Assembly: GCA_913031575.1 (NCBI GenBank)
Contig: CAJWEV010000003.1
Coordinates: forward strand, 43,722 to 107,721
DNA from: an uncultured Halieaceae bacterium
GTDB lineage: Bacteria; Pseudomonadota; Gammaproteobacteria; Pseudomonadales; Halieaceae
DNA length: 64,000 bases
Direction: 5' to 3'
Shown here: positions 321 to 52,899 of the stretch, piece after piece
Numbering within the stretch: position 1 is the stretch's first letter
Layout of the letters: each line of letters starts with the position of its first letter
Translations under genes and position numbers: made by a program
The notes under the pieces: generated by a model
The model's database searches: none
What the model saw: only the letters and a program-made list of their open reading frames with translations
What the model was told of the DNA's origin: nothing

Positions 321-1547
321 TTATAGCAAGTCTCCCCCCGCGGCCATAGCGGTTGTGCCATCTCGTTCGTAGGCACGAAGTACATTCTTCCCTACTTTCC
401 ATCGGTGAACTTCATCTGGCCCGTCAACCAAACGCTGACTTCGGATAGATGTGTACCAATCCGCCAGCGGCGTATCCCGGGAGTACCCTAGCGATCCGTG
501 AAGCTGGAGCGCAGTATCCACAACCTGATGAACCATGTTGGCGAGGAATATTTTAGCAATCGAGTTTTCCTGCGTCATATCGAGACCGTTCTCTGCCTTA
601 TAGGCAATGTGCATCAACATGAGACGCGCCTTGTAAATCTCAGCCGCACAATCTGCGAGCATGAACTGCACGCTCTGACGGTCAGCGAGTTTTTGCCCGA
701 AGGTCTCTCGCTCCAGCACATGTTTAGCTGCCATATCGAGCGCTCGCTGTGCTTTGGCAACATTGTGCATGCCATGCCTTAATCGACCGTAGCCAAGGCG
801 GTGCTGGCCCATATTGAAGCCCTGACCCCGACCTCCCAGCAAATTCGCCTTTGGAACAATCAGATTGTTAATCTCAATTTCACAGTGTGCTGCGCCAAGG
901 CGCTCACCGAGCGGAGTATGCCGATGCATAGTGTCGATATTTCTGAGGATCTTGAAGCCGGGATTAGGCAACTCGACGATGAAGGTCGAAAACTGCTGAT
1001 GCCGGGGTGCGTCTGGATCGGTCTTCGCCATAACCACTGCAATATCGGCAACGTTTGCCGATGAGATGTACCATTTATCGCCATTCAGCACGTAATTATC
1101 GCCATCTTCGACGGCCCTCGTCTTCATACCCGTCGCGTCTGCGCCGCCTCCCTTCTCGGTCATGGCGTAGCACACACGTTTTTCACCTGCCACCAGAGGC
1201 TTGAGAAAGGATTCGTGCTGATACTCAGTGCCGTGGTGCAGCAGTGTCATCATCGTAGCGTCATCAGGACCTTGGGTATTCAGCGCGAGGGCTCCTAACA
1301 TCGACTCACCCAACTCCATCTGAACTAATGCATTTGCGAGCGGCTTGAGACCCATACCACCCCACTCCACCGGAAAAAAAGGACACCAAAGCCCTTTGGC
1401 ACGCGCTTTTTGTCGAAGCCCGGTTAGGATTTCATCATAGGTATCCACAGTAAGACCCTTTTCAGCAGGAATACAGACGTTATGGACAAACTCTCGCACA
1501 ATGCTGCGGACTAGCTTTGTTTCCTCTGGGATTTCAAAGTCGATCAT
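321..1547 (-). CDS. acyl-CoA dehydrogenase (ACAD11-like C-terminal motif DGPDEVHRWKVGKNVL)
   Basis: 408 aa; YAMTEKGGGADATGMKTRA, LQLHGSLGYSRDTPLADWY motifs. Confidence 0.93.
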   Translation of the reverse strand: MIDFEIPEETKLVRSIVREFVHNVCIPAEKGLTVDTYDEILTGLRQKARAKGLWCPFFPVEWGGMGLKPLANALVQMELGESMLGALALNTQGPDDATMMTLLHHGTEYQHESFLKPLVAGEKRVCYAMTEKGGGADATGMKTRAVEDGDNYVLNGDKWYISSANVADIAVVMAKTDPDAPRHQQFSTFIVELPNPGFKILRNIDTMHRHTPLGERLGAAHCEIEINNLIVPKANLLGGRGQGFNMGQHRLGYGRLRHGMHNVAKAQRALDMAAKHVLERETFGQKLADRQSVQFMLADCAAEIYKARLMLMHIAYKAENGLDMTQENSIAKIFLANMVHQVVDTALQLHGSLGYSRDTPLADWYTSIRSQRLVDGPDEVHRWKVGKNVLRAYERDGTTAMAAGGDLL

Positions 1548-50110: not shown

Positions 50111-50186
50111 TGGCGCCGCTGGCAGGGATCGAACCTGCGACCTTTCGCTTAGGAGGCAAACGCTCTTCCAACTGAGCTACAACGGC
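50111..50186 (-). tRNA. tRNA-Arg (anticodon CCT)
   Basis: Minus strand GCCGTTGTAGCTCAGTTGGAAGAGCGTTTGCCTCCTAAGCGAAAGGTCGCAGGTTCGATCCCTGCCAGCGGCGCCA; all arms pair. Confidence 0.93.
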
Positions 50187-50248: not shown

Positions 50249-51631
50249 TTACCGTGGCGCTAGCGCAGAGTACGTGGGCTGATCGACCGAAAGACGACCA
50301 GCAACGCTCAATCGCAGATGCTTGTGCAATCCAGACGCATCTGGGAAGACCCCACTTCGTAGGGCGTTTACTAGCTTCCAGCGCAATTCGGACAGCTGCC
50401 CCTCCCCAAACAACGCCAGTAAGCGACTGAACTCTTCTGCCTCCAGCGCAGGGGTCAATTGCAGCTCTCTCTCCGCAATGGCTAGAGAGTTAATAGCAAC
50501 ACGCAGCAAAAACTTGTCAGCACCCTCGAGGCTCTCCAGAACCGATGCTGTGAGGTGCGTTCTTACTGAGCTTACGACCTCGACCGAGGTCGGTAAGTCA
50601 GTCTCTACTCGTCGCAGAGACGCGGCGTCAATGTCGCCCGGGATCAAAAGGTGTACGCAATCCATCTGCGCCTCCGAGCTTCTGCGGCCGATAACCGGAC
50701 GTTCAACCGAGGGGGTTTCCCCGGTGCGCCAGGTCTTTGCCATACCTAAGGTGGTGACAGACCACCAGAAGGAACCGAAAACCTCCCAGAAATGAAGCGC
50801 ATCCCTGTCAACGCAATTGCCTCCCTCAGCTTCATAGCCCGCTACGAGCTCAGCCACAGTGCCGAAGCCACCAACTGGCAAGTCACGCCGACCGAAGCGC
50901 CACGAATTAACACAAAGCCAACCCAGATCACGCATAGGATCGCCCAAATGACAGAGCTCCCAATCAAGGACGGCTTTTATGCCCTGCTCTGACACCATTA
51001 AGTTGCCGTTTCTGAAGTCTCCATGGACCAGTGCAATGTCTGATTGCGAAGGGAGATTGCTGAGCAGCCATTGGGCCGTGAAATCAATCATGGGCTGCGG
51101 TGTCTCTAGCGCTATGTAGGCCTGCCAGGTCTCCCGGACAAGGTCTTCGGGCGATACTGAGTGCAGCACTTCTCGCAACCTGTCTGGAGCCTCTATCGCG
51201 TGAATCCGTGCTAGTGCCTGCCCGCATTCAAAGGCGAGATTCTCTCGGGCGATCTGGAGCTCGGGTGACTTTACAATTCGTTGACCCATGGTTTCGCCCT
51301 GAAGCCATTCCATAAGATAGCCATCGCCTAAGCCATCAGTCGAACGCAGGGATTCAATCACCTTGGGTACCGGAACGTGGGCGGAAGACGCCAATTCAAG
51401 CAGTTCTGCCTCGACGCGGGGAGTCACCTGTCCGTAGGTCGAACGTTCAAGCCCTGGCTGTGCCCGGCGAAGTGCATAGTTTGTCTCATGGCCCTCTCGA
51501 TTACGGACGCTAACTCTGAAAGTTTGTTGAGAAGCGCCTGCGGTCAGCTGCTGGACGTCGATGACCTGGGCGCCAGGAAAGATCCGCCCGATGAATTGGC
51601 CTAGTTGTGCGTTGAACTCGCCGTCGAGCAC
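50249..51631 (-). CDS. APH-family phosphotransferase with C-terminal DUF6285-like domain
   Basis: Kinase: LVHGDFRNGNLMVSEQGIKAVLDWELCHLGDPMRDLGWLC; C-terminus FLLRVAINSLAIAERELQLTPALEAEEFSRLLALFG...LVNALRSGVF...LRLSVAGRLSVDQPTYSAL. Confidence 0.88.
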   Translation of the reverse strand: MLDGEFNAQLGQFIGRIFPGAQVIDVQQLTAGASQQTFRVSVRNREGHETNYALRRAQPGLERSTYGQVTPRVEAELLELASSAHVPVPKVIESLRSTDGLGDGYLMEWLQGETMGQRIVKSPELQIARENLAFECGQALARIHAIEAPDRLREVLHSVSPEDLVRETWQAYIALETPQPMIDFTAQWLLSNLPSQSDIALVHGDFRNGNLMVSEQGIKAVLDWELCHLGDPMRDLGWLCVNSWRFGRRDLPVGGFGTVAELVAGYEAEGGNCVDRDALHFWEVFGSFWWSVTTLGMAKTWRTGETPSVERPVIGRRSSEAQMDCVHLLIPGDIDAASLRRVETDLPTSVEVVSSVRTHLTASVLESLEGADKFLLRVAINSLAIAERELQLTPALEAEEFSRLLALFGEGQLSELRWKLVNALRSGVFPDASGLHKHLRLSVAGRLSVDQPTYSALAPR

Positions 51632-51633
51632 TT

Positions 51634-52899
51634 TTAACTGACGCCTTTGGGCTTTCTCTGCTCCATAAATCCGAAAAGATAACCGGCGACACGTCGCTTT
51701 TGAATTTCATCGGCTCCCTCGGTAATGCGGTATCGTCGGTGATGTCGGTAAATATGCTCGAACGGCTTATAACGCGAGTATCCAATGCCACCATGAACCT
51801 GCATTGCCGTGTCCGCCGCCTCACAGCACAGCTGATTGGCTTGATAATTACACATCGATACTTTGTCGGAGACAGAGAACGCACCATCGCGATCCATCAA
51901 CCAGGCGGTTTTGTGAACTAGTGCTCTCAGCATCTCGCAGCGAGCTTGAAGATCAACTAACGGAAACTGAATCGCCTGGTTGGTTGCTAGCGCTTTGCCA
52001 AAGGGCTTTCGATGCTTTGCATACTCGACAGCCTCGCTAACACAATACTGGGCGGCCCCGAGACTCGATGCGGCCTGCCGAATGCGATTCTCGTTGAAAA
52101 AGTGCTGTACCACCTGTAGGCCACGTCCTTCACCCGCAAAGATGGCAGTGCTGGGTACGCGCACATTGGTAAAGCGGACCCGCGCATGGTCAGATGGCAT
52201 ATTGAAGGTCCAGAGGTACTCTTCAACCTTCACGCCCGGCGAATCCATAGGCACCAGAAACGCAGTTATACCGCTGGCATCTCCCGCTCCGCCAGAGGTA
52301 CGAGCCATCACCATATCGCTATGCGCTTTATGAACGCCTGTGTTCCACGTTTTTACACCGTTGATGACCCAGTCGTCCCCGTCCCGAGCGGCAACGGTTT
52401 CCATGTGGGTGGCGTCGGAACCGTGATCGGGCTCGCTAATACCAAACGCGAAACCGCGTGTTGCGCTTTTAAGTCCCGGCAACCAATCTGCTTGCTGTTC
52501 GGGCGTACCGTACTCGAGCATCAGTAGCAGACCGATATTATTACCAACAATCGAGTGCTCATTCTGTAAGTCGTTATGTAAACCGAGACCCATAGCAGCT
52601 AGATGCTCGCGGATAATGGCCATCCCAAGGTTGCTGCCATCTCGCCCGCCATGCTCACTGGGAAATGGGTAGCTGAAAATACCGGCCGCAATGGCGCGGC
52701 GCTTGGCTTCCCCCAACAGTGTTTCCCAATCTTCGTTGGGGAGCCCGTCGCGCTCCCAATCCGTTCGCGCGTCCTCGCGCCGGTGATCGAAAAATCGGAT
52801 GTTGTCGTTACTGTTCTCGAGCGGCTTGATCTCGCGCTCAATAAAACGATCCACCTCTTCAAGAAAAAGACGGATGTCCTCAGGAATATCGAAGTTCAT
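51634..52899 (-). CDS. acyl-CoA dehydrogenase
   Basis: GISEPDHGSDATHMETVAARDGDDWVINGVKTWNTG; MQVHGGIGYSRYKPFEHIYRHHRRYRITEGADEIQKRRVAGYLF. Confidence 0.94.
   Translation of the reverse strand: MNFDIPEDIRLFLEEVDRFIEREIKPLENSNDNIRFFDHRREDARTDWERDGLPNEDWETLLGEAKRRAIAAGIFSYPFPSEHGGRDGSNLGMAIIREHLAAMGLGLHNDLQNEHSIVGNNIGLLLMLEYGTPEQQADWLPGLKSATRGFAFGISEPDHGSDATHMETVAARDGDDWVINGVKTWNTGVHKAHSDMVMARTSGGAGDASGITAFLVPMDSPGVKVEEYLWTFNMPSDHARVRFTNVRVPSTAIFAGEGRGLQVVQHFFNENRIRQAASSLGAAQYCVSEAVEYAKHRKPFGKALATNQAIQFPLVDLQARCEMLRALVHKTAWLMDRDGAFSVSDKVSMCNYQANQLCCEAADTAMQVHGGIGYSRYKPFEHIYRHHRRYRITEGADEIQKRRVAGYLFGFMEQRKPKGVS

Follow-up and report, generated by a model that had tools for sequence, protein, structure and literature searches.

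The closest described counterparts of the gene pair reported here are the lva operon of Pseudomonas putida and the mammalian proteins ACAD10 and ACAD11. In P. putida KT2440, growth on levulinate is abolished by deletion of lvaA, lvaB or lvaC, and LvaB, a hypothetical protein of 12 kDa, pulls down with LvaA (Rand 2017, as reported in PMC6692424). In ACAD11, residues R626, H634 and R637 hold the 4-phosphate and D753 is the base; substitution of R626, H634 or R637 by Ala/Leu abolishes the activity of the dehydrogenase domain (PMC12440821). A related logic is seen in 25-hydroxysteroid kinase (25-HSK), which readies a tertiary alcohol for dehydration (PMC8449060).

The window analyzed here is a stretch of 64,000 nt from an uncultured Halieaceae bacterium (assembly GCA_913031575.1, contig CAJWEV010000003.1), whose assembly is 79% complete and comprises 88 contigs. 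A first-pass annotation of the window had proposed that an acyl-CoA dehydrogenase (ACAD) and an adjoining APH kinase represent a split form of the ACAD10/11 chemistry, with DUF6285 as an unassigned accessory domain. We find that the arrangement is real and conserved, that known biology accounts for its DUF6285 part, and that its ACAD part is a new branch. With slightly better than even confidence, we read the pair as a two-step acyl-CoA module in which the kinase would phosphorylate a hydroxyacyl-CoA and the ACAD would take the resulting phosphoacyl-CoA.

Results

Layout of the Gene Pair

The ORF calls place the 460-aa kinase gene product 2 nt (51632-51633) downstream of the ACAD on the minus strand, and Pfam agrees with the domain assignments made in the first-pass annotation. 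The features of the locus are as follows.

51634-52899, minus strand: ACAD of 421 aa, "W-type" subfamily (Pfam Acyl-CoA_dh_1/M/N; own clade, 100/100)
52771-52797, minus strand: RFFDHRRED, ACAD residues 35-43, the W-type hallmark, an N-terminal insert absent from LvaC (two alignments)
52057-52107, minus strand: QHFFNENRIRQAASSLG, ACAD residues 265-281, counterpart of the ACAD11 helix that bears R626/H634/R637, with F267, Q275 and S278 in their place (alignments)
51718-51720, minus strand: ACAD Glu394, which aligns with Asp753 of ACAD11 and with the classical ACAD Glu and is predicted to be the catalytic base (alignments; E in 73/73)
50249-51631, minus strand: fused kinase-DUF6285 protein of 460 aa with a GTG start, putative LvaA-LvaB fusion (ORF call, Pfam, tree, alignment)
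50834-51559, minus strand: APH kinase domain, residues 25-266 of the kinase (Pfam 9.6e-36; catalytic residues invariant in the alignment)
51002-51025, minus strand: catalytic loop HGDFRNGN, residues 203-210 of the kinase (sequence and alignment)
50270-50533, minus strand: DUF6285, very probably an LvaB-family helical domain, residues 367-454 of the kinase (Pfam 1.2e-23; model)

Both Pfam matches in the kinase lie above the curated cut-offs. The C-terminal DUF6285 domain, which the first-pass annotation had recognized by resemblance, is confirmed by a match over the full profile (residues 367-454, 1.2e-23, profile positions 2-91 of 91) that scores 84 bits against a curated cut-off of 28.1 for PF19802. 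The GTG start is supported by a 460-aa relative from the same genus (L231), since its spacing and length equal those of the window kinase; the kinase parts are 89% identical.

Directly downstream of the kinase gene lies a tRNA-Arg gene (anticodon CCT, 50111-50186, minus strand), and beyond it selD (47707) and mnmH (48755), both on the plus strand. No CoA ligase, SDR or hydratase gene adjoins the pair in its neighborhood in the window, a point against the two-step module.

The DUF6285 Domain and LvaB

We found no paper on DUF6285 among openly licensed papers, and a profile search of the PDB sequences gave no match. Modeled alone with AlphaFold (three rows from plasmid records were left out of the input), the domain is all-helical with a mean pLDDT of 91.9; a PDB fold search with this model yielded no significant match (best E 1.9).

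The position of the gene in other genomes is more informative. A Stutzerimonas stutzeri plasmid (L048) carries a complete lva-type operon with DUF6285 in the lvaB slot, the order being PrpR-like regulator, phosphotransferase, DUF6285, histidine phosphatase, ACAD, SDR, acyl-CoA synthetase, DUF485 and acetate symporter. Pseudomonas guariconensis, of the P. putida group (L052), has LvaR (PrpR_N/sigma-54), LvaA (APH), DUF6285, LvaC, an AMP-ligase and an SSF symporter, and here the DUF6285 protein at the lvaB position is 118 aa and 12.9 kDa in size and matches at 4.8e-24. In P. citronellolis (L056) DUF6285 likewise occupies the lvaB slot. Judging from gene position, size and domain in these close relatives of KT2440, LvaB very probably belongs to DUF6285, in which case the window kinase would be an LvaA-LvaB fusion. 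The domain can thus no longer be described as an unassigned accessory, as its place in the lva operons points to the LvaB family. DUF6285 thereby gains a likely identity, and hence a likely role as the partner of a hydroxyacyl-CoA kinase.

The DUF6285 (LvaB) gene of P. citronellolis LMG 18378 (L056:6890-7267) lies immediately after lvaA, whereas no lvaB homolog was reported for P. citronellolis strain LA18T (PMC6692424). A gene of the histidine phosphatase family often adjoins LvaB/DUF6285 in lva-type operons (L048, L047, L050, L055, L056, L121).

Residues and Phylogeny of the W-Type ACAD

The window ACAD was aligned to ACAD11 through LvaC, and the pocket residues of the W-type ACADs were judged by alignment. 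R626, H634, R637 and D753 of ACAD11 correspond to F267, Q275, S278 and E394 in the window ACAD. The F, Q and E are found in 73/73 distinct sequences of W-type relatives and the S in 72/73, with one Gly; among sequences of LvaC type, 96-98 carry the R/H/R/D set. R40 and R41 of the RFFDHRRED insert occur in all 73 distinct W-type sequences, the residues Q112, E114, N120, R274, Q275 and T393 are invariant in the W-type, and H190 is, along with R274 and Q275, invariant or nearly so.

W-type ACADs form a clade of their own (100/100), separate from the LvaC/ACAD10-11 clade (100/99) and sister to it with moderate support (94/86). No NCBIfam model scored above its cut-off for the window ACAD. Membership of the window ACAD in the LvaC/ACAD10-11 group was rejected, as the Asp, R626 and the HCMR motif are not kept and the protein lies outside that clade. 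The idea of split ACAD10/11 chemistry is thus not supported for the ACAD, in which the four defining residues are replaced in 73/73 sequences; the kinase falls in a clade that includes LvaA (see below). Given this replacement and the differing W-type signature, ACAD11-like phosphate elimination is not to be assumed for the window ACAD. It also counts against the two-step module that the replaced residues R626, H634 and R637 are those whose substitution abolishes ACAD11 activity (PMC12440821).

The best reading is that W-type ACADs represent a second class of kinase-coupled ACAD. More tentatively, and with less than even confidence, we suggest that they may be chemically distinct, with a different phosphate pocket or carbon, a Glu base and possibly net oxidation to ETF, not redox-neutral ejection. 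Rather unlikely, in our view, is a plain equivalent of LvaABC/ACAD10-11 that acts on the same 4-hydroxyacyl-CoA by redox-neutral ejection using a rebuilt phosphate pocket (e.g., R274, Q275, H190). The same type of kinase-DUF6285 partner, the moderately supported sister position of the W and LvaC clades and the (near-)invariance of R274, Q275 and H190 speak for such an equivalent, but the counterparts of R626/H634/R637/D753 are lost in 73/73 sequences. Moreover, the window's genome has ACAD10-11 ACADs with an intact signature (L138, L139), so that these enzymes may already provide for the classical route.

The window contains a second ACAD (321-1547, minus strand; also L136), which belongs to the LvaC/ACAD10-11 clade and keeps the catalytic Asp (RLVDGPDEVH); its HCMR motif is altered to HGMH and no APH kinase gene adjoins it. 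Further ACADs of this clade in the same genome (L137, L138, L139) are located on contigs other than those with the genome's APH kinases, and L138 and L139 have an intact HCMR and Asp.

Co-occurrence and Spread

W-type ACADs were identified in the genome samples with a profile cut-off of E<=1e-100. In the phylum sample we found a W-type ACAD in 19/299 genomes and DUF6285 in 26/299, and all 19 genomes with the former also had the latter. The same holds at the genus level, where 13/13 W-type genera have DUF6285 against a background of 18/154 genera (P 3.3e-15; this hypergeometric value ignores relatedness among genomes and is a guide only), and in the order sample (6/6 W-type genomes; DUF6285 in 19/146). 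As the ACAD and the kinase-DUF6285 lie on distant loci or contigs in 6/19 of the phylum-sample genomes, the link is more than inherited adjacency. Among the seven other DUF6285 genomes, six have an LvaC-type ACAD beside an LvaA-type kinase; no ACAD was seen within the short locus of the seventh (L190).

Within the window's family the W-type ACAD is present in 75/120 genomes, and of 33 W loci retrieved in the family and order samples, 31 hold the ACAD together with a fused kinase-DUF6285. In a second W subgroup, kinase, DUF6285 and ACAD are together at 10/10 loci. In Nocardia farcinica the genes for DUF6285, the kinase and an ACAD of 73% identity are consecutive. Three haloarchaeal plasmids (L216, L217, L218) encode a 59%-identical W-type ACAD and an APH kinase, with a helical protein of 157-159 aa between or beside them. 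When compared with DUF6285 as a possible distant relative, this small protein gave no Pfam match and an hhalign probability of 3.9%, and homology is therefore not claimed. Hydantoinase/oxoprolinase-type genes are found nearby in two of these plasmids. At locus L153 of genome G456, the kinase gene next to the W-type ACAD is broken into three reading frames, which points to a pseudogene or to an error in the sequence.

Neighbors of the W loci in other genomes include genes for enoyl-CoA hydratase, SDR, AMP-ligase, thiolase or nitronate monooxygenase, in keeping with the two-step module. Only such generic beta-oxidation genes recur among the shared neighbors, and we therefore propose no substrate.

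The distribution also bears on whether the ACAD is an ordinary oxidizing enzyme of the same pathway, with a Glu base and electrons passed to ETF, while the kinase product is passed on to a different enzyme, for instance an LvaC-type ACAD encoded at a distant place in the genome. Glu394 is indeed canonical, the window's genome has ACADs of the LvaC/ACAD10-11 type, and in a plasmid cluster of Sulfitobacter pontiacus (L049) a W-type ACAD and an LvaC-type one surround the same, single kinase-DUF6285 pair. We nevertheless regard this explanation as doubtful, since the exclusive co-occurrence with DUF6285 kinases and the near-constant adjacency in the family suggest a direct functional link.

The Kinase

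The catalytic residues H203, D205, N210 and D223 of the kinase (HxD....N and D(W/F)) are intact and invariant in 23 aligned sequences. In a tree of 52 kinases, those linked to DUF6285 form one clade (95/97) that includes both LvaA and the window kinase; the subclade of the window kinase adjoins that of LvaA and does not lie within it. Two haloarchaeal kinases branch just outside this clade, and the sampled kinases without DUF6285, four of them neighbors of LvaC and three from the window's own genome, fall further off.

Four lineages separately show a fusion of kinase and DUF6285, namely the window clade (100/100), L036 of LvaA type, L159/L166 of alphaproteobacteria and L260 of the second W subgroup. 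Because fusion arose repeatedly, it fits a physical partnership of the two domains. The AlphaFold model of the fused chain has a pTM of 0.84.

By profile, 3dxp, 9o56 and the kinase of ACAD11 rank first among the solved relatives (1e-25 to 7e-20), with 25-HSK at 2e-13, and in the fold search 3dxp is the best match and 25-HSK (9fsg) the second. Based on homology to LvaA and ACAD10/11 and on the LvaB domain, the window kinase probably phosphorylates a hydroxyacyl-CoA, a conclusion that we consider sound. A free or tertiary alcohol as substrate, as for 25-HSK, would agree with that second-best fold match, but it is improbable given the much better profile scores of the other three structures and a partner that is an acyl-CoA enzyme. 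An aminoglycoside-type resistance kinase that neighbors the ACAD gene by chance would share the APH fold, but is exceedingly improbable and was rejected on model scores (NCBIfam APH(3') 32.1 bits against a cut-off of 205 and Mph(F) 30.7 against 650; APH(3') and Mph models 17-32 bits overall against cut-offs of 205 or more), while co-occurrence with the ACAD is conserved. This agrees with the tree, in which the kinase sits in the LvaA-containing clade (95/97) and not with true aminoglycoside kinases, the grouping that the first-pass annotation had named as contrary to its proposal.

Discussion

In the two-step module that we favor, the kinase domain with its built-in LvaB (DUF6285) would use ATP to phosphorylate the hydroxyl of a hydroxyacyl-CoA, as suggested by homology. 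The adjoining FAD-dependent ACAD would then accept the phosphoacyl-CoA, with Glu394 taking the alpha proton and FAD the beta hydride. Phosphate would depart during or after this step to give an enoyl-CoA able to enter beta-oxidation. The part proposed for the ACAD is suggested by its obligate association with DUF6285 kinases and by its sister position to LvaC/ACAD10-11. In the openly licensed literature we found no biochemical data on the W-type subfamily, and nothing on the module in papers on FadE36/phosphotransferase or steroid clusters.

The W-type is a widespread ACAD subfamily that is tied to kinases, yet unable to use the published phosphate-handling residues of ACAD10/11. The question of how an ACAD removes phosphate thus becomes a comparison between two sister groups. 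The pair also flags an acyl-CoA route that is common in the window's family (75/120 genomes); alphaproteobacteria, Nocardia and haloarchaea show a related arrangement.

Comparison With Known Systems

Like LvaA-LvaB of P. putida, the window has an APH kinase and DUF6285 beside an ACAD gene. The two parts are joined in one chain in the window, whereas they are separate proteins in the lva operon; the window kinase is ~30% identical to LvaA of S. stutzeri and belongs to a separate subclade, and its partner ACAD is of a different type. With LvaC and the ACAD domains of ACAD10/ACAD11, the window ACAD has in common the ACAD fold, the partnership with a kinase and a place in neighboring clades (94/86). 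It is ~30% identical to them, and has F/Q/S/E and the N-terminal RFFDHRRED insert but not their R626/H634/R637 contacts and Asp753.

The 25-hydroxysteroid kinase of Sterolibacterium denitrificans (9fsg) shares the APH fold and the logic of phosphorylation followed by elimination, but its substrate is a steroid without CoA and it is further from the window kinase by profile score. Classical short/medium-chain ACADs have the Glu base and the conserved FAD/CoA framework in common with the W-type. They differ in having no kinase pairing, while the W-type has invariant polar residues of its own, namely Q112, E114, N120, R274 and Q275.
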